From NCBI RefSeq assembly GCF_001639145.1, contig NZ_LROY01000001.1, forward strand, positions 622,501-686,500: DNA of 64,000 nucleotides, written 5' to 3'. The notes beneath the pieces were generated by a model. That model saw nothing but the letters and a program-made list of their open reading frames with translations, did no database searches and was not told the origin of the DNA. The translations under genes were made by a program, and so were the position numbers. The stretch comes from Microbulbifer sp. Q7. GTDB lineage: Bacteria; Pseudomonadota; Gammaproteobacteria; Pseudomonadales; Cellvibrionaceae. Numbering within the stretch: position 1 is the first letter of the stretch; every line of letters begins with the position of its first letter. Positions 33,303 to 47,089 of the stretch are shown piece after piece.

Positions 33303-35111
33303 TTACTTCTTGGCGCGCTTGCGCATGTTTTCCTGCAGGATCTTCTTGCGGATGCGGATGCTCTCCGGCGTCACTTCCACCAGTTCGTCGTCTTCGATGA
33401 ACTCCAGTGCCTGCTCCAGGGTGTGACGGATGGGCGGTGACAGGGTCAGCGCATCGTCGGTGCCGGAAGCGCGCACGTTGGTCAGCTGCTTGGCCTTGGT
33501 GGGGTTGACCACCAGGTCGTTGCCGCGGGAGTGAATGCCGATCACCTGGCCTTCATACACTTCTTCACCGTGGCCCAGGAACAGGCGGCCGCGATCCTGC
33601 AGCGCGAACAGGCCGTAGGCCAGGGTCTTGCCCTTGGTCATGGACACCAGTACGCCGTTGATACGCTTGGCCACATCACCCACCTTCACCGGACCGTAGT
33701 GGTCGAAGATGCTGGTCATGATGCCGGAGCCGCTGGTGATGGTCAGGAACTGGGAGCGGAAACCGATCATGCCGCGAGACGGCACGATAAAGGTCAGGCG
33801 CACACGGCCCTTGCCATCCGGTTCCATGTTGGTGAGGTCGGCCTTGCGCAGACCCAGCTCTTCCATGATCGGACCCTGGTGCTGCTCTTCAACGTCGATC
33901 ACCACCTGCTCGTAAGGCTCGTGGATCTCGCCGTCGACTTCTTTCTGTACCACTTCCGGGCGGGATACACCCAGCTCGAAGCCTTCGCGACGCATGGATT
34001 CGATCAGTACCGACAGGTGCAGTTCACCCCGGCCGGATACCTTGAATTTGTCCGGGGAATCGCCCTGCTCCACACGCAGTGCCACGTTGTGGATCAGCTC
34101 CTGGTCCAGGCGGTCCTTGATATTGCGCGAGGTTACGTACTTGCCTTCTTTACCGGCGAACGGGGAGTCGTTAACCTGGAAGGTCATGCTCACGGTGGGC
34201 TCGTCTACCGACAGCGGCGGCAGCGCTTCCGGGTGCTCCGGGTTACACAGGGTATCGGAGATGTTCAGCTCGCCCACGCCGGTGATACATACGATATCGC
34301 CGGCGCTGGCCTGCTCCACTTCCACGCGCTCCAGGCCCAGGTAACCCATCACCTGCAGGACCTTGGCTTTGCGCTTGTTCTCGTCGCGGTCGAGGATCAC
34401 AACCTGCTGGTTCGGCTTCAGGGTGCCGCGGGTAATACGGCCAACGCCGATCACGCCAACGTAGCTGTTGTAGTCCAGCGCGGAAACCTGCATCTGGAAA
34501 GGACCGTCGCGGTCAACTTCCGGCGGCTTGACCTTGTCGACGATCATCTGGAACAGCGGGGTCATGTCGTCGGCCATATCGGTTTCGTCGAGGCCGGCGA
34601 TACCGTTCAGGGCGGAGGCGTAGATGACCGGGAAGTCCAGCTGCTCTTCGGTGGCGCCAAGGCTGTCGAACAGGTCGAATACCTGGTCCATTACCCAGTC
34701 AGGGCGCGCGCCCGGGCGGTCGATCTTGTTGATCACCACGATCGGGTTCAGGCCCTGCTCGAAGGCCTTGGAGGTTACAAAGCGGGTTTGCGGCATGGGG
34801 CCGTCAACCGCGTCCACCAGCAGCAGTACCGAGTCCACCATGGACAGTACGCGCTCTACCTCACCGCCGAAGTCGGCGTGCCCGGGGGTGTCCACGATGT
34901 TGATGCGGTAGTCATTCCAGCGGATCGCGGTGTTCTTGGCGAGGATGGTAATGCCGCGCTCTTTTTCCTGATCGTTGGAGTCCATCACGCGCTCGGAGTC
35001 GGCGCTGCGGCGGTCAAGGGTGCCGGACTGGGACAGCAGCTTGTCCACCAGGGTGGTTTTGCCGTGGTCAACGTGGGCGATGATCGCGATATTGCGAAGA
35101 TTGTCTATCAC
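33303..35111 (-). CDS. typA: Ribosome-binding GTPase TypA/BipA
   Basis: A 602-residue translational GTPase related to EF-G and LepA that binds ribosomes and aids assembly and stress responses. GTPase motifs [10 protein letters not shown] (G1), [15 protein letters not shown] (G3) and [12 protein letters not shown] (G4) are intact. The C-terminal domain ends with a Lys/Arg-rich tail typical of the family. The length matches E. coli BipA (607). It is transcribed alone. Confidence 0.97.
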
Positions 35112-35462: not shown

Positions 35463-36731
35463 GTGCCATCTACCCGGAATTTACCGGTGAAGAGAATAAA
35501 TAGTGGTTACCGCCGTCGAAGCGGTCCCGCCAATGAGGTAAATGGTGCAGACATGACTGATTCACAAGTAACAGAGCCGACTGCGCGGGCGCAGGATGAT
35601 GCAGGGGCAATCGGCGCGGTGGCGCAAACCCAAGCGGCGGAGCCGACCGCCGGCGAGGCGCAAAAGGCAGAGCCGGAGCCGGTGAGAAAGTCCTGTTCTC
35701 CGGGCCTCGCGCAGTGGATGCATCAGCGACAGCTGTCCATAGCGTTTACCTCCTATCAGTCTGGCCGCGTCTATATGGTGGGTGCCGAGCCCGGTGGCAA
35801 ACTGTCCTTCCACGAGCGTATCTTCCAGCGCGCCATGGGCATTGTGGGCAACCGCAAACGTATTTACATGGGCGGCCTCTACCAGGTGTGGCGCTTTGAG
35901 AACGTACTGCAGCCCGGACAGGTGGCAAACAATATTTTTGATGCCTGTTATGTACCGCGCAATGCCCAGTTCACCGGTGAGGTGGATATCCACGAGCTGG
36001 GTATCCAGAAAGACGGCAAGATCATTTTCGTCAACACCAAGTACAACTGCCTGGCGGAGCTGAGCCTGACCCACAGCTTCCGCGCCATCTGGAAGCCCGA
36101 ATTTATCAGCAAGCTGGCGCCGGAAGATCGCTGCCACCTGAATGGCCTGGCGATGGTGGACGGTAAGCCGAAGTACGTTACCGCCGTGTGCAAGTCCGAC
36201 ACCATCGACGGCTGGCGCGAGCGCCGTGACACCGGCGGCGTGGTGATCGATGTCGAAACAAACGAAATTGTTTGCGAAGGCCTGTCTATGCCGCACTCCC
36301 CGCGCTGGGTCGACGGCAAGCTGTGGGTGCTGAACAGCGGTACCGGCTATCTGGGCACCGTGGACTTCGAAAGCAAAGCGTTCGTGCCGCACACCTTCTG
36401 CCCCGGCTTTATGCGCGGCCTCGCGATCCATGGTAACTACGCCATCGTTGGCCTGTCCAAGCCGCGCTACGAGCGTTTCGAAGGTCTGGAGTTGGACCAG
36501 AATCTGGCCGACAAAGATTCCGAAGCCTGGTGCGGGGTGCAGTTCATCAACCTGACCAACGGCAATGTGGAGCACTGGATCCGTCTTGATGGCCCGGTGA
36601 GCGAACTGTTCGATCTCACCGTGCTGCCGGGCGTGCGCTGCCCCATGGGGATTGGTCAGCAGAGCAAGGAAAACCTGAGCATGGTGACCTTCGAGGATGC
36701 CACCAGTGCCGGAAGTGCCAGTCCGGTCTGA
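35463..36731 (+). CDS. TIGR03032 / DUF4915 family protein
   Basis: A protein of up to 422 residues in the TIGR03032 (DUF4915) family, whose function is not established. After a variable Ala/Glu-rich N-terminus (to about residue 75), the conserved core begins SIAFTSYQSGRVYMVG. It continues through GLYQVWRFEN, DIHELGI, NTKYNCLAELS, CHLNGLAMVDGKPKYVTA, GLSMPHSPRW and GFMRGLAIHG. The recurring short strand blocks suggest a beta-propeller-like fold. No signal peptide is seen, so it is probably cytosolic. GTG 35463 has GAGG close upstream; ATG 35553 is an alternative start with a poorly spaced site. It heads a tight operon with a GNAT-like and a radical SAM gene. Confidence 0.85.
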   Translation: MPSTRNLPVKRINSGYRRRSGPANEVNGADMTDSQVTEPTARAQDDAGAIGAVAQTQAAEPTAGEAQKAEPEPVRKSCSPGLAQWMHQRQLSIAFTSYQSGRVYMVGAEPGGKLSFHERIFQRAMGIVGNRKRIYMGGLYQVWRFENVLQPGQVANNIFDACYVPRNAQFTGEVDIHELGIQKDGKIIFVNTKYNCLAELSLTHSFRAIWKPEFISKLAPEDRCHLNGLAMVDGKPKYVTAVCKSDTIDGWRERRDTGGVVIDVETNEIVCEGLSMPHSPRWVDGKLWVLNSGTGYLGTVDFESKAFVPHTFCPGFMRGLAIHGNYAIVGLSKPRYERFEGLELDQNLADKDSEAWCGVQFINLTNGNVEHWIRLDGPVSELFDLTVLPGVRCPMGIGQQSKENLSMVTFEDATSAGSASPV

Positions 36732-36736
36732 TCGCC

Positions 36737-37291
36737 ATGATTGGAAATTACCACAAGGTCGCTGACTACAACGACTACGCGCTATTTGATGTCTATCGCA
36801 AGCTGGCGCCGGCCGACCTTACTGACGTGGTTGACTTCTGGCGGCGAAACGACGCCCTGCCCAAGGGGCTGTCGGAAGCCGAAGCGTTGGGTCGCGCCGC
36901 GCAAGTGGCGGTAGTGGTGGTCCGCGATGGTCGGATTGCAGCCCTTGCATCGGTGTACGTCGCGCGAGCGCCGCGCGATGGCCAGCCTTACTATTTCTAT
37001 CGCAAGTTTGTCGAACCCGGGCATCGTATCTACCTGATGTGGCGGGAGATGCTGGCGCAGACTTACACGATACTGAAAGCGTGGAAGCCATTGCATCTGC
37101 CACGCAAACCTATGGGAATCATCGTGGTACCGGAAAATCGCAAGCTGACGCGCAAGAGCGTGTTGCGTGCCGGCAACAAGATCGGCTTTTACACCATTGG
37201 GTATCTTCCCAATGGCGACCCGGTTTACGGCCGGAAATTCGACGAATCGGTGACGGAAAACCTCGCCGCGCCGGAACCGGAGGCGCTGTAA
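36737..37291 (+). CDS. Possible GNAT-fold protein, operon partner
   Basis: A 184-residue protein that I read as a possible acetyltransferase-like (GNAT) fold: alternating strands such as AQVAVVVVRDGRIAALASVYVARA, followed by helices, and a C-terminal block ENRKLTRKSVLRAGNKIGFYTIG resembling the last helix and strand of GNAT proteins (a residue pair that goes on as 'GFxxxG'). No clear acetyl-CoA loop is visible, so the function is uncertain. It starts five bases after the TIGR03032 gene, and its TAA overlaps the radical SAM ATG by one base, implying translational coupling. Confidence 0.7.
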   Translation: MIGNYHKVADYNDYALFDVYRKLAPADLTDVVDFWRRNDALPKGLSEAEALGRAAQVAVVVVRDGRIAALASVYVARAPRDGQPYYFYRKFVEPGHRIYLMWREMLAQTYTILKAWKPLHLPRKPMGIIVVPENRKLTRKSVLRAGNKIGFYTIGYLPNGDPVYGRKFDESVTENLAAPEPEAL

Positions 37292-38412
37292 TGAAGCCTG
37301 TACCTGTAGAGCGACACCCCGCGGCGGAGGGCGCAACCCGCGGTCTCTGTAATGTCTGTTACGGTGAGGTCGACGCAGAGGTCACGGTGCGGGAAGACGG
37401 CGTCTACCTGCTCAAGGCGTGTCCCGAACACGGGCGCCAGGATATTCGTATCGAGACCGATGCGGATTTTTACCAACGCAGTTTGGTGACTGGTCCCGGC
37501 CGGGACTACTGGTACAGTGTAATCGGCACAACGGCACTCGAGGTGACCGAGCGTTGCAACGTATCTTGTCCCAGCTGCTATGCGTTGCCTGAAAACGGCG
37601 CTCAGGATCCGGAGATCGATGAGCTCGTTCAGATCGCGAAACAATCTACCGCAGAAAAAAGTAAAACGCTGATATTGATGGGCTCTGAGCCCACCATGCG
37701 GCGCGACTTGCCGGAATTGATCCAGACCTTGCAGCGGGAAACCGGAAAACCGGTTTCCATGTATACCAACGGTATACGGCTGGCGAGCGAAAAGTATTGC
37801 GATGAGGTCTTGCCCCATCTCTATTCCGTTGCCTTTTCACTGCATATGCGGGATTACCTGCCGCAGCCGGTACTGTTCGAGAAAAAGCTCAAAGCGCTTC
37901 AGAATGTGATTGCGCGCAAGGTCCCGATTAACCACATCAGTTTCTCCCTCCGCGACCTGGATGACCTGGATGAAGTCTGGGAGCACTGCGGTCAGTTCTG
38001 GGGCGTGCCACACCATTTCCGTATCCGCACGCCATCCCAGGTGGGGCGCTGTGATGATGAGCCCTTTTATCTCTCCGATCTGGTGAAGGCATTTGTGCGC
38101 AAGGCCAATGTCGAGGGCAAGAAGGTGGTCTGGTATCCCGCTGACAACAACCCGTATCACGTGATGGTGCGGGTGGAGCAGCAGTTCTTCCGCCTGATCC
38201 ACTTCCCCGGTGTGGAAGAAGCAAACCTGAACCACCTGCAGTCTCCACCCTACGCGCTGTTTATGCCGGAGCTGGGTGAAACCAACCTGGTGCACCAGTT
38301 CATCATGCAGGAAAAGGATAAAAAGGCGCGTACGCCGATGCGAGCGGTGGAGCGGAGTGCGGCGCCGGAGGTGCGCACCGGCGTTGAGCTGATTGACACT
38401 GTCGCCGTCTGA
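37291..38412 (+). CDS. Radical SAM enzyme with N-terminal Cys/His motif
   Basis: A 373-residue radical SAM protein. Cys89, Cys93 and Cys96 (CNVSCPSC) form the CX3CX2C cluster motif, and MGSEPT at about residue 131 replaces the usual GGEPT. Before the barrel, Cys20xxCys23 and Cys44xxHis47 (KACPEHG) form a rubredoxin/zinc-like knuckle. This knuckle resembles radical SAM proteins of the MJ0619/tetraether-synthase type; the likeness is from memory and needs a search. No SPASM-type cysteine cluster is seen at the C-terminus. ATG 37291 overlaps the previous stop by one base; the longer open frame to 37039 lies in that gene. Substrate unknown. Confidence 0.88.
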   Translation: MKPVPVERHPAAEGATRGLCNVCYGEVDAEVTVREDGVYLLKACPEHGRQDIRIETDADFYQRSLVTGPGRDYWYSVIGTTALEVTERCNVSCPSCYALPENGAQDPEIDELVQIAKQSTAEKSKTLILMGSEPTMRRDLPELIQTLQRETGKPVSMYTNGIRLASEKYCDEVLPHLYSVAFSLHMRDYLPQPVLFEKKLKALQNVIARKVPINHISFSLRDLDDLDEVWEHCGQFWGVPHHFRIRTPSQVGRCDDEPFYLSDLVKAFVRKANVEGKKVVWYPADNNPYHVMVRVEQQFFRLIHFPGVEEANLNHLQSPPYALFMPELGETNLVHQFIMQEKDKKARTPMRAVERSAAPEVRTGVELIDTVAV

Positions 38413-38435: not shown

Positions 38436-39635
38436 TCAGGGCCGGTTGGGCCAGCGCAGCGTCGCGCGGGTGCCGCCGAGGTGCGGGGACTGGTCCAGGC
38501 GCAGTTCGCCTTCGTGCCACATCATCACTTTCTTTACGATATACAGCCCGAGGCCGTACCCCTGCTCATCCGTGGCGGAGCGGGTGAAGGCGTCGGTCAG
38601 TTCCAGCGCATCACCGCCAAGCCCGGGGCCATTGTCCTCCACCGCAAGGCAGCAAAAACCTTTCTGTTCATCGAACTCGAACCGTATATCGACGCGGTCA
38701 TGTGCGTATTTTGCCGCGTTCACCACAAGGTTCTGGATCGCAATGGTCAGTGAATCCGGTTCCAGCCAGGCCTGGTCATCGGGAAAGTAGTAACCGATTT
38801 CCAGCGCCAGGCGCTGGTTTTCCAGGTGCGAACCCAGCTCGGAGAAGAAGGGCTCAAGCGCAACGGTTTTCCGTGCAAGAAACTGCTCGTGCACCTCAAC
38901 CTGGGCAAAGTTCAGGTATTTTTCTACCAGCTGTTCGATATCCCGCGTCGCGCGGTCGATGACCTGTACACTATCAGATTCGCTTTCCGAGTCGCCCGCA
39001 GACAGGGCCTGCTGGAACTTGATCCGCGCTAGCGGCATACGGATTTCGTGGGCGATGGTGCGGGCCAGGTCCTGGTTCATCTGGAAGTGGCCGGTAACGA
39101 TATTCGCCATACGGCGGAAGGTCTCCGCCAGCGGAAATATGGGCGAGCGGCGGCTGAGCTGCTCGGGAATATGAAAAGGCTTTTTACTGAAACGGATGGC
39201 CTGCTTCTGCAGCCGATTGAGGTCGCTAAACATTGGCCAGATCAGCAACAGCAAAACCACCAGCATGGCGCCGATAAACAGCAGGCGCCACTGGGTAACA
39301 CTGTGTGCCGGTTCGTGCGGGAAGGGCCCGATTTCCAGTACCGTGTTGCCGTTGCGATGGTAAAACAGGATTTTCCCGTCGCCGGCATCCAGCCCGACAA
39401 CCTCGCCACCATTTAGCCGCTGGTGTAGGGCGCTGGAGAAATGGATCGCGTCCGCAGGGTAGCTTTGCGCCAGCGGTGCGTCGCCACGTTCCAGTGCTTC
39501 GGCCAACTGGGCGGCACTGATGGTGTATTCCTGAGGGGCGGCGGAGTAGAGGTTGTAGAGTGCCGCAACCGACGAGTAAACCACCACCAGGGCCAGCGCC
39601 AGAACGCTGACCAAACGCAACATTTGCAGACGCAT
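38436..39635 (-). CDS. Sensor histidine kinase
   Basis: A 399-residue inner-membrane histidine kinase. Transmembrane segments lie at about residues 8-30 and 117-135, enclosing a small periplasmic domain. The phosphoacceptor is His196 in RTIAHEIRMPL, followed by the HATPase motifs NLVVNAAKYA, DNGPGLGG and GYGLGLYIV. Its start codon overlaps the stop of the response regulator gene by one base. It is the last gene of the mipA–DUF3019–regulator–kinase operon. The stimulus is unknown. Confidence 0.95.
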   Translation of the reverse strand: MRLQMLRLVSVLALALVVVYSSVAALYNLYSAAPQEYTISAAQLAEALERGDAPLAQSYPADAIHFSSALHQRLNGGEVVGLDAGDGKILFYHRNGNTVLEIGPFPHEPAHSVTQWRLLFIGAMLVVLLLLIWPMFSDLNRLQKQAIRFSKKPFHIPEQLSRRSPIFPLAETFRRMANIVTGHFQMNQDLARTIAHEIRMPLARIKFQQALSAGDSESESDSVQVIDRATRDIEQLVEKYLNFAQVEVHEQFLARKTVALEPFFSELGSHLENQRLALEIGYYFPDDQAWLEPDSLTIAIQNLVVNAAKYAHDRVDIRFEFDEQKGFCCLAVEDNGPGLGGDALELTDAFTRSATDEQGYGLGLYIVKKVMMWHEGELRLDQSPHLGGTRATLRWPNRP

Positions 39636-40402
39636 CAGGAAGTACTGTGAACGGTAGTGAGGGAATAGCCCCGGCCGCGAATGGACTGTATGGCAACACC
39701 ATGAGGGATTGCATCGAGTTTTTTTCGCAAGCGGCTTACGCGCATGTCGATCACACGATCCAGCCCGTCAAATTCCCGTCCGATAACGCGACGGAACAGG
39801 TATTCGCGACTCAACAGGCACACCGGTTGTTCAGCGAAGATCTGCAGCAGGTCGAACTCGTTGGTAGTGAGCGGCAAGGGCTGATCGTTTACCGTGGCTT
39901 GGCGGCTCACAAGGTCGACGCGCAGGGGGCCAAACTCAATACTGGAGCTGGCTGGCGCATGCCCTTTCGTAGCGCGCAGGTGCGTTTCAATTTTTGCCCA
40001 CAACAGATGTGGATCGACGGGTTTTACCAGGTAGTCGTTGGCGCCGAGTCGTAAACCCGCAACCTGATCGTCGACGGAGCTGAGCGCGCTGAGGAAAATC
40101 AGTGGGCAGCTCAACTGACTGCGAAACTGTTCCAGCAGGCGAAAGCCGCTGGCATCCGGCAGCACCACATCCGCAATGATCAGGTCGTAATCCTTGTGAT
40201 GGATCGCTTTCATGAAATCACTGCCGCTGGCTGCATAAGTCACTTCGCAGTGACGTTCAGTGAGAAATCGCACAATCAGCTCGGCCAGCTGAGTGTCGTC
40301 TTCAAGCAGTAATATCCGGTAAGTTTGTGGTTTGCTGTCGTTATCGGCCGCTGCGGCGCAGCTTGCGATGTTTTCTGCGTTATTCATCACAGGACTCATC
40401 AC
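39635..40402 (-). CDS. OmpR-family response regulator
   Basis: A 255-residue two-component regulator. The receiver domain has Glu34-Asp35-Asp36, phosphoacceptor Asp78 (IIADVVLPD) and the conserved Lys in YLVKPVD. The C-terminal winged-helix domain (from about residue 158) ends with VSRLRKKLDAIPHGVAIQSIRGRGYSL-type residues. An unusual 25-residue N-terminal extension precedes the receiver; a later ATG (MNNAEN) is possible. It overlaps the DUF3019 gene by four bases. It may control its own operon through the repeats at 41713-41736. Confidence 0.95.
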   Translation of the reverse strand: MMSPVMNNAENIASCAAAADNDSKPQTYRILLLEDDTQLAELIVRFLTERHCEVTYAASGSDFMKAIHHKDYDLIIADVVLPDASGFRLLEQFRSQLSCPLIFLSALSSVDDQVAGLRLGANDYLVKPVDPHLLWAKIETHLRATKGHAPASSSIEFGPLRVDLVSRQATVNDQPLPLTTNEFDLLQIFAEQPVCLLSREYLFRRVIGREFDGLDRVIDMRVSRLRKKLDAIPHGVAIQSIRGRGYSLTTVHSTS

Positions 40403-40764
40403 AGGAGCCCCCAGCCGTATCGGCGGCGATGGCGCTTGGGTTGATACTGGGCGACCTTGAGCACGGCGGCGGCAACGCTTTTGCCGCTTTCGTCTGCGGT
40501 CACCTGAAAGCGAATATCCTCGGGGCTATTGACGTAGACGTTGAGGTCTTCGCTGTCCCCAAAGAAGCAGCGCACCAGGCCGCGGCCGACAATCGACAGG
40601 CAGTAACGGGCTTCGTCGTCCGCATCGAAATTCAGCCTTACTAGCACTCTGCACTGGTCCTCACTTTCATCGAGTGCGCACATGCTGGGTGTAACCCGTA
40701 ACTCTGCACCCGTTGTCAGGCCGGGCACCAGAGCAAGCAACAGCATCAGAACATTCAGCTTCAT
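40399..40764 (-). CDS. DUF3019 family periplasmic protein
   Basis: A 121-residue protein with a signal peptide (about residues 1-20) matching DUF3019, small secreted proteins often found next to mipA and a two-component pair. Four to five cysteines (MCALDESEDQC, YCLSIV, RCFF) suggest disulfides. The C-terminus is basic (KRHRRRYGW). It is sandwiched with a 2-base gap to mipA and a 4-base overlap with the regulator. The function is unknown; a role in sensing envelope stress is inference. Confidence 0.85.
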   Translation of the reverse strand: MKLNVLMLLLALVPGLTTGAELRVTPSMCALDESEDQCRVLVRLNFDADDEARYCLSIVGRGLVRCFFGDSEDLNVYVNSPEDIRFQVTADESGKSVAAAVLKVAQYQPKRHRRRYGWGLL

Positions 40765-40766
40765 GG

Positions 40767-41621
40767 TCAGTGCCCACTGCCAAATGAGTACTGGAGGCCT
40801 GCAAACCAGCTGAGTGTGTGCGGATTCTCGATAAAACGCAGGTTTCTTCCCGCTTCATCGTAATCGTTATAGCGCGCCGCCAGGCGCAGCTCCAGGTGCT
40901 TGCCCAGAGGGTAGGAAAAGTGCAGCCGCGCGTAGGTATCGGTGGCGTCGGCTGCCGGATATCTTTGCGCGTAGCGGCTGTAGAAGACCCCCGCTTCCTC
41001 TTCGGTGAACTGGTAGTAGTAGCTCACCAGGTCCATGTCTTTCTGGACCGCGCCAACGCCAAAGCCTACAGCGCCGCCAAACAGTGGGTACTGCTTATCG
41101 AAGCTCAAATGGGTTTCGCTGCCGTGGTGCACGTTGCTCAGGTCGTGGAACCAGGAGAAGGAAACGTCCACCCAGTCCGAAACCAGAGTCACACTGGGGC
41201 CGCCGACGAGGGAGACTTTGCGTTCCACATCTGCGGGGTCTGCGGCTTGGAACTGGGTCAGCCAACTGGTAATCAGGCCATTGCTGGCGGCATTGTTCTT
41301 GTCCAGCTGAAAGAAGAGTCCATCTTCATTGGGGCGCGCCACCAGGTCCAGGTAAACGCGCTCGTTTTCCAGCAGGCTATAGCCAACAGTCAGGTTACTT
41401 ACAAAGAAACGTTTTCCGTAGTAGCTGAAGGAAGGTAGTACATGGGTTTCGGCATCCTGCTTTCCGGCGATCGGGTTTTCCAGAAAACCGTAACCACCGG
41501 CCAGGCTGATCTTCCACTCATGTGTCGGCACAGCCGCCGGCTCGGCGGCCCGGGCTTGGGTAACACCCAAGGTAAGGGCACTGAGCAGAATCAGCGGGAG
41601 TAGTGTTGTACTTCTGATCAT
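40767..41621 (-). CDS. MipA/OmpV family outer-membrane protein
   Basis: A 284-residue MipA/OmpV protein. Family members are outer-membrane barrels that in E. coli scaffold murein-synthesising complexes. The signal peptide ends TQARA. The core is rich in amphipathic strands (ISLAGGYGFLENPIAGKQ, LPSFSYYGKRFFVSNLTVGYSLL) and ends LSWFAGLQYSFGSGH. It is the first gene of a four-gene operon with DUF3019, regulator and kinase, whose promoter lies between it and the divergent autotransporter. Confidence 0.9.
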   Translation of the reverse strand: MIRSTTLLPLILLSALTLGVTQARAAEPAAVPTHEWKISLAGGYGFLENPIAGKQDAETHVLPSFSYYGKRFFVSNLTVGYSLLENERVYLDLVARPNEDGLFFQLDKNNAASNGLITSWLTQFQAADPADVERKVSLVGGPSVTLVSDWVDVSFSWFHDLSNVHHGSETHLSFDKQYPLFGGAVGFGVGAVQKDMDLVSYYYQFTEEEAGVFYSRYAQRYPAADATDTYARLHFSYPLGKHLELRLAARYNDYDEAGRNLRFIENPHTLSWFAGLQYSFGSGH

Positions 41622-41736: not shown

Positions 41737-41870
41737 AAACCGTATTTTCCGGATTAATTTTCGCCATATTGTGCGTTTGTCGAACAAATTGCCTGTGTGA
41801 ATTTCCAGACTTTTCAGTCAGGATTTGTCCGTCCTCCCCTTTCTAAAAAAGTTAATCGCACCACAGCCTG

Positions 41871-41900
41871 AAGCACCCGCCCCGTTCGGGGCGGGTGCTT
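41871..41900. other. 13-bp GC-rich hairpin in autotransporter leader
   Basis: AAGCACCCGCCCC and its exact complement pair around the tetraloop GTTC. It lies 143 bases upstream of the autotransporter ATG, on the 5' side of that gene. The T-tract after it is weak (TTTCGTTC), so it could be a weak attenuator, a processing site or the end of a short leader transcript. Confidence 0.6.
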
Positions 41901-42043
41901 TCGTTCGCGCACACGGCTGGTGCGCTTACAAACTGTTACGTGAAACTCTTGGAGTGCTTGATTCGCCCCGTGGTTTTATCGGTCGCTCAGAAACTTCCAA
42001 TAACAGCGTCAAACGCAACCACTCACCTTGGGGGAGAGAATCC

Positions 42044-45000
42044 ATGGCCGATAACAAAGGCTTTCCCAGCGCCCAGCGCCAGCTGACTTCAGCCGTTCGC
42101 AAGGCCCTGTTTACATCTGCGACCGTTGCCGCCATTGCGGCGGGTACGCCCGGTCATAACGCCTACGCCCAGCAGGCCGGCGCCTGCAACCCGATTTCTA
42201 CTGAGTTCACCAGTGGCACTGTTCAGTGCAGCGGCGAGTTCGATGAGACCATCCACTACGAGGTGAAAGACTTTACCGTTGTGAACGGTATTGAGGTCCC
42301 GAACGACATCCAGGTGGTGGTTGCGGAAGGTAGCACCGTCAGCGGTATCTCGGTGACCGCTGTGGCAGCAGAACCTGCCAGTATTGCAGCCGAGGGCTCG
42401 GTGATCATTGAGAACCACGGTGATGTGACCCAGTCCGGTGACAGCGACATCGCCATCGACCCGTCGTTCGTCAAGACCTACTACGATCGCGCCCTGCGTT
42501 TCCCGGGTGAACAGCGTGCCGGCCTCAACTTCACCGGCATGGTGCAGCTGGATGAGAACCGTGCTCCGATTACCGGTTCCGAGCAGTCTTTTGGTACCGA
42601 GGGTGTCGACGCCGACGATATGGCCGAATACATGGCCGGCCTGGGTTACGATCTCTCCAACACTGATTTCGGTGTGGGCCGAGAAGACCAGCTTGACGTG
42701 ATCGTGGCCGCCGAGGGCTCACTGGTGTTCGATGACGTGGCTGCGATCTCGGCCGAAACCGATGCTGGCTCCATTGCCATCGAGAATACTGGCGACCTGC
42801 GCCTGGGCAATGGCCTGTCAGTCGATTACTACACCTCCGTCACCACTTCTGACAGCGCGGGTAACCGCCATTGGGTGGATATCGATGGTGACGGCGAGGT
42901 CGACCTGCAGCTGTATTCCGATGCCGCCGAGGTATTCGTCAATGGCGATAAGCTGACCTCCCGCGCCTCCGTGGTGGGTATTGATGCGCAGAGTATCGCT
43001 GGCGATATCCAGATCGCGAACGATGGCAGCATCAATGCCGGTGACGTTGCCTACGGCATCCGCAGCCACACCGACTCCGGTGACATCACCATTAATAACA
43101 CTGGTGATATCGACCTGGGTGCTGACTCTGTGGGTATTGCTGCCAGCACTGCCGCCAACGCCGAGTTGGCGATGCAGTACGGCTACTCCGTCGACAACGG
43201 CGTAAGCTTTGATTCGGGTAACGCCTCTGCGTTCAAGTACAAAGCCCCTTCCTATACCCACACTAGTACCGAATATGTAGGCAAGATCTACAACGCCGAC
43301 GGCGTTGACAGCATCATCCAGATTGCGAACTCTGGCAGTATTACTGTGGGCGCTGGCGGTACCGGCATCCGGGCCGCCAACCCCTCCGGTGACGAGATCA
43401 TCATCGAAAATAGCGGTGACATCATTGTTGCTGCCGGCGCGGGCGGCGCGGGCATCCACGCTGATGCCACTGCCGGTTTCGAGAGTCAGTACACCGTTGA
43501 CTATGCCCAGACCCCGGGCTGCGGTGGCTTTTTCCGCCCCTGTGAGCCGCTCCCCTACGAAACCTATGTTGTACCGGGTGAGGGTGTTGAGGCTGGCGAT
43601 AGCTGGTATACCCATGACTTGAATGGTGATGGCGTGGACACGCCCACCAAGCATTACTACGCCCAGGATGTGAAAGAGGGGCGCGGCTACGTGGCCGACG
43701 TGGGCAATATCACCATCGTTAACAGCGGCACCATCGACATTTCTGCGGCCAGCGATGCCTCCGGTATTCACGCGGCCACCCTGGGCAGCACTGCAATCGA
43801 GAACAGCGGCCAGATCCTGGTGGGCAGCGACAGCACTGGCATCTCCTCCGCCGGCGCGGGTGAAACGCTGGTGCTGAACAGCGGCGATATCGCGCTGCAT
43901 GGTTCCGGCAGTGACGCCATCAATGTTAATGCCCTGATTCGCCACCGCCTGCTGGGCAATGACAGCATCACCCCCGAGGAGATCTACGGTGGCTTCAGCA
44001 ATGAGGAAGTCAATGCTGCCTATGCCGGCTTTGGCGGCCCGGTCACTGTCTACAACACGGGCAGCATTAGCGGTGACCAGTTGTTGTCCGAGGTGATCGA
44101 GACCAACGAGGATGGGGCATTCACTTCCAATCCCAACCTGGCACGCAGCACCGGCATCAACGTTTCGGCCACTGGCAGCAACCTGAAGGGTACTGATGTG
44201 CCTTTGGCCATGTACGGCGCCGAGACCATTGACGCACGCAATAAGCAGACCAGTGGTTCGATTTCATTCCGCGAGGAAATTGAATTCTTCGATACCAAGG
44301 TCGTCAACACCGGTGATATCGCCCTGGGCGACCTGTCCGAAGGCATCCGTGTCTCGGCCACCTATGGTGATGTGACCGTGATCAACAGCGGCTCCGTTTC
44401 CGTGGGTAATGGTTTTATCGGCGAGAGCGCTGGTAACTACTCACCCTTCCGCACGCATTCCCGCGCTATTGCCGCTGATCCGGGTGGCACCAGCTGGGCC
44501 AACAATACCGTCATCAATACCGCGGATGGCGTGGTCACCGCTGGTGATATCGGCCAAGGCCTGGTGGCGGACTCTGTCCATGGGGAATCCCTGGTGCTGA
44601 ATAACGGCACTGTAACCGTGGGCAGCGGTGCGACGATTGAGGCCGGTGAGACCCGTGAAACCGACTGGACTGTAAACGCCACCGGCATCCATTCAAGCAC
44701 GGTACTGGGGTTAGACGCATACGCCGGAGCCGTGAACAACGGTACCGTGACTACGGGTGACAAGTCCTTTGGTATGCTGGTGAGCAATGCCACCAGCCCG
44801 GCCTTCTTCACCGAGGTTTTTGACCACAACTACACTGCCCTGGCGGTGAATACCGGCAGTATCACCAGCGGTGATAACAGTGCCGGTATTGCCATTGCCG
44901 GCGCCTCCAACTTCGCACAGAACACTGGCGACATCACTATCGGTAGCGGTCCGCTATACAGTCTCTCCGATACCTCCGGTTCTGCGGCGATGATGAACCT

Positions 45001-47089
45001 TGGTAGTGTTGATACAAGCCTTTACTCCGTACTGGTGAACGATGGCAGCATCACCACCGGCGACATGACTTCCGGTATCGATGCCACCGGTTTTGTGCTG
45101 TCTGTGGCCGCGCAGGGTGAAAACGGTCAGATGGTGACCGGGGATGACACCTACGGTATGCGCTCCATTGGCTACATCCAAGGCATCACCCAGAACGCCG
45201 GCACTATTCAGACTGGCGACAACAGCACCGGCATGCGCACGTATGCGATCTATGCCCAGAGCATCAATTCCGGTGACATCAATGTGGGCAACGATTCCAC
45301 CGGTATCAGCGTTGTGGGTGCCGCCACTTATGTGCGCAACAGCGGTGACATCCACACCGGCGCCAACAGCACCGGAATCGATGTTTTCTCGGGGGGTGCC
45401 CCGACGGTGGTCGTCAACACTGGCAGCATCACTACCGGCACCAACGGAGTAGCGCTGGAAGTGTTTGGCCAGGATTACCTGAATCTGCAAACTGGCCAGG
45501 TGGTTCCGAACCTGATCTTCAACGCCGGTAACATCACCGGCTCCATCATCACTGGTGACAGCGACGATATTCTGCGCAATGGCTTCCGCTATGACAGCAG
45601 CGGCATCATCGCCGGTGTTGGCAAGATCACCCTGAGCGATGCGACCATCGACATGGGTGCCGGCCGTAACACCTTCATCAACGAAGCGGGTGATATCGTC
45701 TTCTCCGGCGACAGTGCGATCGAGCTGGGTGCGCAGGGTGCCATGGTCAATTATTCCGGCGGCGCCAACTACGTCACCATCTCCAGCCTGGATAACCAGG
45801 TGGGCGATAGCCTGACCATCAACGGCGATGTGACCTTCGCCAATTTCCAGAGCACAGGTGCGTTGTTGCTGGTGGACGTCAGCTCTACGGTCAGCGACAG
45901 CATCACCATCAATGGTGACCTGAGCGCGGTGGATGTGGTGAACCAGGCGGGTGACACCCAGACCAGCGGTCTGCGTGTTGCGATGAACGTGACCGACCAG
46001 AGCAAGGGTGCGCAGACCACCGATGCGATCCTCACCGTGAACGGCAACCAGGATGTGGACAGCGTATCCCTGGCCGCACTGGGCGGTGACTTTGCCGATA
46101 CCATCCTCGAAGCAAAAATGCAGCAGGACGGTAACGGCAACTGGGTAATCGCCTACACCGCCGGTCTGTCCGACCTCGGTACGGCTGCAAGCTCTGTTTC
46201 ACATCTGGCCGAGAGCTTCTGGGCCCGCTCCGCGTCCGTGTTCCTGGACAGTGAGCGCGGTGCCAACCGCGGTGAAAGCAGTCGCGTGGAAGGTTTGCAG
46301 GTCTGGTCCAGTGTTTTTCACAGTGATAGCGACATCGAAAGCAAGGGCGAAATCGCTGCTCAGGACCTGAGCTTTACCCAGCTACTGAGCAGCCAGATGG
46401 CCGGCGCCACTTACTCCACCAAACTGGGCAGCACCTGGTTGTCTATCAGCCCGATGGTGGGTAAAGGCTACGCAGACGGCAATCAGTTGGCGCAGCAGTC
46501 GAGTGCTTCCCTGGATACCGAAACCTTCGCACTGAATGGCTCTCTGAGCATGGGTGACTTCTACGCGAGCGCCATGGTTCAGCAGGTGGACTTCGATGCA
46601 CGCGTCCGGGCCTACGACTCCGCCGCGATGACCTCCGGTAAGGCAAAAGGTTATAGCCTCGAAGGTGGCTGGACCTACCTGATGGACTCCGGTGTCGCTA
46701 TGACCTCGTTTGCCCAGTGGAGCGATGTGAAGTCTGAAATCGATGGCTTCACCTCTTCCGACGGCAACTTTGACTATGCCTACAACCTTGGCAGCACAGA
46801 GACGACCCGTCTTGGCCTGAGCATGCGCAAGTCCTTCAAGCTAAGTGAAGGTTTTGCCATGCCTTACGCCACCTTCAGCATTGCCGACAGCAATAACCAC
46901 AGTGTGCACGACCTGCACGCCAATGGTGTTGTGTTCAACAGCGATGTGTCCGGCACCGGCTTCAATATCGACTTCGGTGTGGACGGTAAGTACAAGCTGT
47001 GGTCCATCAAGAGTGGACTTGGCGTGCACAGCGGTGACACCGACAAAAACGGCTTGAGCGGGCACTTTGCCATCTCTCGCAGCCTGTAA
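42044..47089 (+). CDS. Giant autotransporter with repeat-rich passenger
   Basis: A 1,681-residue type V secretion protein. A long signal peptide (about 45 residues, ending AYAQQ) is followed by a passenger of about 1,370 residues with dozens of short beta-helix-like repeats. They alternate NSGDI/NTGSI with GD-S-GI motifs (GDNSTGM, GDNSAGI, GNDSTGI, GANSTGI). The last roughly 265 residues form the translocator barrel (from RVEGLQVWSSVF) and end SRSL, not the usual Phe. GGGGAGAG at 42031-42038 supports ATG 42044; the longer open frame to 41825 is not supported. It is probably a surface or cleaved adhesin or binding protein. It is followed by a TonB receptor, an S9 peptidase and a TonB-C protein on the same strand. 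Confidence 0.9.
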   Translation: MADNKGFPSAQRQLTSAVRKALFTSATVAAIAAGTPGHNAYAQQAGACNPISTEFTSGTVQCSGEFDETIHYEVKDFTVVNGIEVPNDIQVVVAEGSTVSGISVTAVAAEPASIAAEGSVIIENHGDVTQSGDSDIAIDPSFVKTYYDRALRFPGEQRAGLNFTGMVQLDENRAPITGSEQSFGTEGVDADDMAEYMAGLGYDLSNTDFGVGREDQLDVIVAAEGSLVFDDVAAISAETDAGSIAIENTGDLRLGNGLSVDYYTSVTTSDSAGNRHWVDIDGDGEVDLQLYSDAAEVFVNGDKLTSRASVVGIDAQSIAGDIQIANDGSINAGDVAYGIRSHTDSGDITINNTGDIDLGADSVGIAASTAANAELAMQYGYSVDNGVSFDSGNASAFKYKAPSYTHTSTEYVGKIYNADGVDSIIQIANSGSITVGAGGTGIRAANPSGDEIIIENSGDIIVAAGAGGAGIHADATAGFESQYTVDYAQTPGCGGFFRPCEPLPYETYVVPGEGVEAGDSWYTHDLNGDGVDTPTKHYYAQDVKEGRGYVADVGNITIVNSGTIDISAASDASGIHAATLGSTAIENSGQILVGSDSTGISSAGAGETLVLNSGDIALHGSGSDAINVNALIRHRLLGNDSITPEEIYGGFSNEEVNAAYAGFGGPVTVYNTGSISGDQLLSEVIETNEDGAFTSNPNLARSTGINVSATGSNLKGTDVPLAMYGAETIDARNKQTSGSISFREEIEFFDTKVVNTGDIALGDLSEGIRVSATYGDVTVINSGSVSVGNGFIGESAGNYSPFRTHSRAIAADPGGTSWANNTVINTADGVVTAGDIGQGLVADSVHGESLVLNNGTVTVGSGATIEAGETRETDWTVNATGIHSSTVLGLDAYAGAVNNGTVTTGDKSFGMLVSNATSPAFFTEVFDHNYTALAVNTGSITSGDNSAGIAIAGASNFAQNTGDITIGSGPLYSLSDTSGSAAMMNLGSVDTSLYSVLVNDGSITTGDMTSGIDATGFVLSVAAQGENGQMVTGDDTYGMRSIGYIQGITQNAGTIQTGDNSTGMRTYAIYAQSINSGDINVGNDSTGISVVGAATYVRNSGDIHTGANSTGIDVFSGGAPTVVVNTGSITTGTNGVALEVFGQDYLNLQTGQVVPNLIFNAGNITGSIITGDSDDILRNGFRYDSSGIIAGVGKITLSDATIDMGAGRNTFINEAGDIVFSGDSAIELGAQGAMVNYSGGANYVTISSLDNQVGDSLTINGDVTFANFQSTGALLLVDVSSTVSDSITINGDLSAVDVVNQAGDTQTSGLRVAMNVTDQSKGAQTTDAILTVNGNQDVDSVSLAALGGDFADTILEAKMQQDGNGNWVIAYTAGLSDLGTAASSVSHLAESFWARSASVFLDSERGANRGESSRVEGLQVWSSVFHSDSDIESKGEIAAQDLSFTQLLSSQMAGATYSTKLGSTWLSISPMVGKGYADGNQLAQQSSASLDTETFALNGSLSMGDFYASAMVQQVDFDARVRAYDSAAMTSGKAKGYSLEGGWTYLMDSGVAMTSFAQWSDVKSEIDGFTSSDGNFDYAYNLGSTETTRLGLSMRKSFKLSEGFAMPYATFSIADSNNHSVHDLHANGVVFNSDVSGTGFNIDFGVDGKYKLWSIKSGLGVHSGDTDKNGLSGHFAISRSL

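Follow-up and report, generated by a model that had tools for sequence, protein, structure and literature searches.

The window analysed here is a stretch of 64,000 nucleotides from Microbulbifer sp. Q7 (NZ_LROY01000001.1, positions 622,501-686,500; the genome carries the handle G000), and the host genus is Microbulbifer. Three co-directional genes in the window encode a TIGR03032/DUF4915 protein, a GNAT-like protein and a radical SAM enzyme. A gene for a giant autotransporter lies 3.4 kb downstream on the same strand. The trio and its possible relation to this autotransporter are described below. The features of the trio are:

35553..36731, plus strand: gene 1, TIGR03032/DUF4915 protein, predicted β-propeller (NCBIfam, Pfam, homologue starts judged by eye, AlphaFold (AF2) model)
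36737..37291, plus strand: gene 2, GNAT-like protein of 184 residues (AF2 model; a protein with 36% identity adjoins the radical SAM gene in genome G250)
37291..38412, plus strand: gene 3, radical SAM enzyme of 373 residues without an auxiliary cluster motif (Pfam and NCBIfam, 23-row alignment, tree)
37348..37431, plus strand: rubredoxin-type metal site C20-X2-C23-X20-C44-X2-H47 in gene 3, PF23545 (Pfam, alignment, spacing of tetraether synthase, Tes)
37555..37578, plus strand: radical SAM cluster motif C89-X3-C93-X2-C96 in gene 3 (translation, 23-row alignment)

The first-pass annotation, made from the sequence alone, had placed the three genes here with a 5-base gap between genes 1 and 2 (36732-36736) and a 1-base overlap between genes 2 and 3. 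This arrangement holds, except that gene 1 probably starts later. A GTG at 35463 would give a protein of 422 residues and an ATG at 35553 one of 392. The N-termini of homologues align with the ATG (judged by eye), which is probably the true start, the GTG being too early. The guanine plus cytosine content of the trio (0.57-0.60) matches that of the window (0.58), and a recent foreign origin was rejected on this ground.

Gene 1 belongs, as first proposed, to TIGR03032/DUF4915. It scores 421.9 bits against TIGR03032 (NCBIfam cut-off 251.5) and 446.2 bits against DUF4915 (Pfam cut-off 35). The AF2 model, calculated from 20 sequences with a predicted local distance difference test score (pLDDT) of 88.1, contains 25 strands and few helices. 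The fold is predicted to be a β-propeller; this assignment, and that of gene 2 below, are read by eye from the secondary structure of the models. The strongly conserved stretches of the protein include EDRCHLNG and GLSMPHSPR, which would be compatible with a ligand-binding or active site. TIGR03032 was found over the cut-off in 32 of 398 sampled Pseudomonadota genomes, and 8,000 scored proteins included 2,950 DUF4915 matches at E 1e-20 or better. A hand count of the 120 matches listed gave 60 with GNAT, 43 with GT41, 8 with TPR only and 9 without a partner, shares that are biased, since a GNAT fusion served as the query and set the length range. TIGR03032 is fused to GNAT in L126 and to TPR repeats in L169 and L172, where weak Glyco_transf_9 matches fall below the cut-off. 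The system had been called undescribed, and full-text literature searches, outside whose coverage most subscription papers lie, found no paper naming TIGR03032 or DUF4915.

The earlier identification of gene 2 as a possible GNAT-fold protein stood in part. Its AF2 model (15 sequences, pLDDT 88.2) runs through two short strands, two helices, three strands, a helix, a strand, a short helix followed by another helix, and two strands, an order of elements that by eye is predicted to be GNAT-like. At the sequence level neither Pfam nor NCBIfam gave a GNAT or any other family match, a profile search gave no solved relative, and the homologue in G250 has no Pfam GNAT match. L126 encodes a GNAT domain joined to DUF4915, and a relation of gene 2 to that domain at the sequence level was sought and rejected. 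Clear copies of gene 2 occur in 5 of 48 genomes of the genus; a sixth match (G021) was weak (28%), contained a stop and was discarded. Among the 398 genomes of the phylum, gene 2 was found in the window's own genome alone.

Gene 3 proved, as the first reading had it, to be a radical SAM enzyme with a C20xxC23...C44xxH47 knuckle ahead of its CX3CX2C motif. The knuckle matches PF23545, the zinc ribbon of HMPTM-type radical SAM proteins (44.9 bits, cut-off 27), and the seven ligands C20, C23, C44, H47, C89, C93 and C96 are all invariant in the 23-row alignment. These 23 rows hold no other invariant Cys, none following C96, and gene 3 has no Cys between H47 and C89. Among solved structures, tetraether synthase matches gene 3 best (7tol, E 2e-14, with the strongest stretch at residues 82-173). 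This enzyme is described as having a rubredoxin-type site, C9X2C12X20C33X2H36, as well as an N-terminal (C73, C77, C80 and a His) and a C-terminal auxiliary cluster (PMC9433317). Like tetraether synthase (Tes, or GDGT-MAS, MJ0619), gene 3 has CX2CX20CX2H at identical spacing followed by the CX3CX2C core. Unlike Tes, it has no ligands for either auxiliary [4Fe-4S] cluster, and its 78.6 bits against NF045702 are far below the cut-off of 450. The suggested likeness to MJ0619 and tetraether synthase does not extend beyond the radical SAM core and the rubredoxin-type site.

The best NCBIfam match of gene 3 is TrsS (NF045646). Gene 3 shares the N-terminal domain and the core with TrsS and the longer PF23545 proteins, but it reaches 90.3 bits against a cut-off of 490 and stands on a separate branch of the tree. 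In that tree, of 51 rows, a 100/100 branch splits the short family of gene 3 from the longer TrsS/HMPTM-like proteins; the tree is midpoint-rooted, carries long-branch warnings and draws on 20 hand-picked loci of 80 viral ones and on 27 of 35 protein matches other than the window's own. Against prokaryotic viperin (NF038283) gene 3 scores 38.9 bits (cut-off 180), a weak similarity of the core, and the idea of a defence-system enzyme was set aside since nothing beyond such matches was seen.

The family of gene 3 is rare and largely viral in these data. A search of 5.8 billion proteins listed 35 matches besides the window's own: P0002-P0024 (23, one a fragment) are of the short kind of gene 3, and P0025-P0036 are of the longer HMPTM/TrsS type. 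Matches were obtained in 32 of 58 related genomes searched. The window's genome has the one full-length copy; the others, the best of which (E 4.9e-9 in G041, 8.4e-8 in G018) span about residues 53-204, are partial and were put aside as generic radical SAM cores. A further genome of the genus, G333, lies outside this set. Close copies, with P0006 as the query, were found in two of 369 genomes of the class, G000 and G250. In a species-level genome collection, from which the window's own genome may be excluded, the best match is 32% identical (L043). Viral contigs contain 208 stretches that encode relatives at a loose limit. In the best 80 of these plus L043 (81 loci), gene calling recovered the relative in 79, and full-length relatives are abundant. 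No match was found in 50,697 named phage records, and plasmids gave partial, distant matches only.

The viral loci have recurrent genes of their own. A 190-residue protein, V2, is present in 64 of the 81 and V5 in 48 of the 81; the V5 copy that was scanned has an Mtd_N tail-fibre domain. V2 was considered as a relative of gene 2 and dismissed, because a profile comparison with 5 V2 sequences showed no similarity; no relative of gene 2 was confirmed in viral contigs. Dense clusters of small genes surround the radical SAM gene next to the Mtd_N protein in L175, L192, L195, L219 and many of L173-L252. Of the other neighbours scanned, V7 is a second radical SAM family and V8 is weakly epimerase-like, below the cut-off; the scanned copies of V1, V2, V3 and V4 have no Pfam match over the cut-off, and V1, V2 and V3 no PHROG.

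The trio is not confined to the Q7 strain. It recurs in G333 with an identical 5-base gap and 1-base overlap, and the gene 3 copy, found in the locus fetched from that genome, is 83% identical. Just upstream of the intact TIGR03032 gene of G333 is a second, degenerate copy with an in-frame stop (L153:7172-8131). Gene 2 follows TIGR03032 in all five genomes with a clear gene 2, and gene 3 is third in order in G000 and G333; the loci of G338, G332 and G335 contain genes 1 and 2 and no gene 3. In G250, a gammaproteobacterium of another family, a gene 3 copy with 62% identity is followed by a gene 2 copy with 36% identity. This pairing is unlikely to be due to chance, since gene 2 is otherwise very rare. 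Furthermore, metagenomic clusters of gene 3 (P0002, P0003) and gene 2 (P0040, P0046) have matching contig sizes, 1961 and 2957, which suggests that they adjoin each other. Because the trio is seen in two genomes only, it represents a rare elaboration of a more widespread TIGR03032-GNAT theme. The earlier supposition of a single pathway gains from the G250 pair for genes 2 and 3 and from the constant adjacency for genes 1 and 2.

Upstream of the pair in G250 (L337:1815-4774) are genes for a 179-residue protein with a signal-like start and for an M50 peptidase-HlyD fusion. Neither was retained as a cassette component: no match to them was found near TIGR03032 in 29 windows, 20 controls and the 81 viral and L043 loci.

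The first-pass annotation had found no obvious product or transporter. The giant autotransporter gene downstream changes this picture. The surroundings of the trio are as follows:

41825..47089, plus strand: giant autotransporter, open reading frame of 1,754 residues, candidate substrate (PF03797 match; co-occurrence with TIGR03032)
46301..46993, plus strand: autotransporter β-domain PF03797 (Pfam scan)
38436..39635, minus strand: histidine kinase, between the trio and the autotransporter (Pfam and NCBIfam scans, genus genome search)
39635..40402, minus strand: response regulator (Pfam)
40399..40764, minus strand: DUF3019 protein (Pfam)
40767..41621, minus strand: MipA-family protein (Pfam)
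33303..35111, minus strand: what we take to be a TypA/BipA-like GTPase, probably an unrelated housekeeping gene, flanking the locus (flank kept in 10 of 12 loci, window included)

The last 290 residues of the frame at 41825-47089 match PF03797 with 36.0 bits (cut-off 26), and the whole frame has no Pfam match at 1e-3. The true start is probably a later ATG. TIGR03032 is present in 12 of the 48 genus genomes and autotransporter matches in 10, one of which (G026) is a 41-residue remnant. All nine genomes with an intact autotransporter are among the 12 with TIGR03032, compared to none of the 36 without it, and G015 contains two copies of each. By simple counting, the probability of such an overlap is 1.3e-7 in the 48 genomes and 0.0045 within the 18 that bear the flanking kinase, figures that ignore relatedness, co-occurrence within one genus being phylogenetically non-independent. 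These 18 include all 12 genomes with TIGR03032; the other 6 are also devoid of the autotransporter.

In a nine-genome autotransporter tree, one clade with 100/100 support consists of the four genomes that carry a close gene 2 (G000, G333, G338 and G332). The same grouping in these nine genomes is rejected by the approximately unbiased test (p-AU) for the response regulator (0.0035), the MipA protein (0.0001) and TIGR03032 (0.029) and is not rejected for the kinase (0.10); the group was defined by gene 2 and tested after earlier trees had been seen. Compared with the window, G333 has 72% identity in the autotransporter, the nearest of those compared, 70% in the kinase and 52% in MipA. As the group is shared with the autotransporter clade and rejected for two of the intervening genes, gene 2, judged by sequence, goes with the autotransporter type across intervening genes of other ancestry.

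TIGR03032 also adjoins giant genes outside the genus. In total, 29 windows around TIGR03032 genes were inspected (9 plus 20, picked for long contigs; five are shorter than 19 kb), together with 40 control windows from 12 of these genomes. A giant was defined as a Cys-poor, GSTNDA-rich open frame of at least 1,500 residues. Such exoprotein-like frames occur in 10 of the 29 windows versus 1 of the 40 controls (Fisher p 0.0005), a comparison in which the criterion was fixed once the first giants were known and in which control windows are lacking for five of the ten positive genomes. All ten giants are on the same strand as TIGR03032, and seven are within 300 bases of it; L302 and L303 come from one genus. 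Six of the ten were scanned: those of L296 and L299 have autotransporter barrels, those of L302, L307 and L309 FG-GAP and RTX domains, and that of L305 Ig and cadherin domains. For L303, L293, L165 and L166 the giants were assessed by eye alone.

Eight neighbours of TIGR03032 or frames overlapping it were also scanned. A TPR-GT41 protein was found in L302 and L303, a TPR protein in L307, TIGR03032 itself in L304, a hybrid histidine kinase in L294 and a PAS/GAF sensor in L301; L309 and L300 gave no match. In L302 (G355), the giant FG-GAP/RTX frame, TIGR03032 and the TPR-GT41 glycosyltransferase are consecutive on one strand. In L303 (G361), TIGR03032 adjoins TPR-GT41 and the giant frame is 2.4 kb away on the same strand. 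The two regions, L302:7559-19899 and L303:7703-19900, are likely glycosylation loci for giant exoproteins.

We propose that the three genes form a cassette whose products act in the cytosol to modify the giant autotransporter of 41825-47089 post-translationally, a proposal for which we consider the chances evenly balanced. TIGR03032 is best read as the core of this cassette, with tailoring optionally carried out by the GNAT-like protein and the radical SAM enzyme. Family membership, adjacency, co-occurrence, fusions and the co-segregation of gene 2 with the autotransporter type are shown by sequence and by comparison of genomes; the identity of the substrate and the order and chemistry of the steps we infer. 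The TIGR03032 propeller would bind or act on the repetitive passenger before export. The GNAT-like protein might then put an acyl group on the passenger, or on a sugar carried by it. In the window strain and G333 the radical SAM enzyme could add a further C-H modification, perhaps receiving electrons via the rubredoxin-type site, and the modified passenger would leave through its own β-barrel. The earlier choice of a small metabolite, a lipid or a protein as the target would be narrowed to a protein. A bolder version, which we regard as doubtful, has two parts. The TIGR03032 propeller, the GNAT-fold transferase and the radical SAM enzyme, whose family is largely viral, would together put a radical-derived modification on a giant autotransporter adhesin before export. 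In addition, cassettes that modify giant exported repeat proteins would in general be built around TIGR03032, the catalytic partner (GT41, GNAT or radical SAM) being exchangeable.

Several observations weigh against the proposed cassette, besides the relatedness of the genus genomes, the late choice of the giant criterion with its missing controls and the testing of the four-genome group after the fact. Four genes on the opposite strand separate the trio from the autotransporter, which is thus outside the operon. TIGR03032 occurs with no autotransporter found in G018 and G337, and with the remnant alone in G026. The TIGR03032 tree departs from the autotransporter tree, and G335 combines a divergent gene 2 (51%) with the other type of autotransporter. 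In the clade defined by gene 2, the closest partner of G333 is G338 and not G000, so that gene 3 does not single out a separate autotransporter subtype. The trio, kinase, regulator, DUF3019 and MipA genes include no glycosyltransferase by Pfam or NCBIfam. G250, which by its number belongs to the genome set searched for TIGR03032, is not among the genomes with a match, and its 16-kb contig, which breaks off 115 bases beyond gene 2, holds no giant frame. Outside the genus, 19 of the 29 TIGR03032 windows have no giant frame, and sensors adjoin TIGR03032 in L294 and L301. The nearest viral relatives of gene 3 (L173, L174) lie among replication-like phage genes, as judged by eye, and the viral neighbourhoods may point to other substrates. 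Of all these points, we give most weight to the missing glycosyltransferase, the four intervening genes and the viral neighbourhoods.

The association might instead reflect a recombination hotspot between conserved flanks, with TIGR03032, gene 2, gene 3 and the autotransporter co-occurring by linked transfer and not by function. The locus is indeed variable between conserved flanks in the 12 genus loci compared, all the genes lie within 12 kb, and exchange as a block would yield shared trees. We consider this unlikely, given that two of the genes separating gene 3 from the autotransporter have a different history, that TIGR03032 recurs beside giant genes in unrelated families and that genes 2 and 3 are paired in G250.

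In another scenario, the adjacent two-component system senses a diffusible small molecule or signal that the trio produces or modifies, and the autotransporter is a regulated output and not a substrate. The kinase lies next to the cassette in 10 of 11 further genus loci fetched, every genome with TIGR03032 is among the 18 with the kinase, and the sensors of L294 and L301 would fit. However, the kinase is present without TIGR03032 in 6 genomes, no such two-component pair is seen by eye beside TIGR03032 in six giant-bearing loci, and the cassette has neither a transporter nor an assembly enzyme according to Pfam and NCBIfam. We regard a signal of this kind as quite unlikely.

It is less probable still that gene 3, perhaps together with gene 2, is a captured phage function acting in nucleotide or DNA hypermodification or in antiviral chemistry. 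The abundance of full-length relatives in viral contigs, the replication-like surroundings of L173 and L174 and the weak core similarity to prokaryotic viperins are all consistent with it. The viperin cut-off is nevertheless far off (38.9 versus 180 bits), no nuclease, nucleotide enzyme or phage-like gene is among the genes scanned at the locus, and neither a gene 2 relative in viral contigs nor a gene 3 match in the named phage records was found. That gene 3 is a lipid-modifying enzyme like tetraether synthase is scarcely credible, despite 7tol being the best solved relative (E 2e-14) and the identical rubredoxin-type spacing, because ligands for both auxiliary clusters are missing, the score is 78.6 against 450 bits and C-C coupling by tetraether synthase is reported to be tied to the C-terminal cluster (PMC9433317).

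If the proposed cassette exists, it has partial precedents. HMW1C-like enzymes and FlmG are members of the GT41 and TPR families. Glycosylation of an adhesin or of flagellins is reported for an HMW1C-like glycosyltransferase and FlmG (PMC3012730, PMC7591256). TIGR03032 is elsewhere fused to or beside TPR-GT41 proteins, whereas in the Microbulbifer cassette its partners are the GNAT-like and radical SAM genes. The heptosyltransferases TibC and AAH are reported to be dedicated modifiers of an autotransporter (PMC4358343). The trio would likewise be a dedicated autotransporter modifier, but unlike these enzymes it contains no glycosyltransferase domain. The dedicated decoration of autotransporter adhesins, a known kind of system, thus seems to include a so far undescribed branch with TIGR03032 at its base. 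A literature search, with the coverage given above, found no paper on radical SAM enzymes together with autotransporters and post-translational modification. TIGR03032 is common, and its link to giant adhesins gives the family a testable role. This link suggests that giant exoproteins are decorated more often, and by a broader chemistry, than the known glycosylation systems show. To our knowledge, radical SAM chemistry acting on a surface adhesin would be new.

Two minor observations concern the genus loci. The DUF3019 protein (40399-40764 in the window) is present in 7 of the 12 loci compared. In G015 (C1:3733113-3774781), the second TIGR03032 gene and the second autotransporter gene are 35 kb apart, and the sole copy of the flanking kinase is at the other locus.

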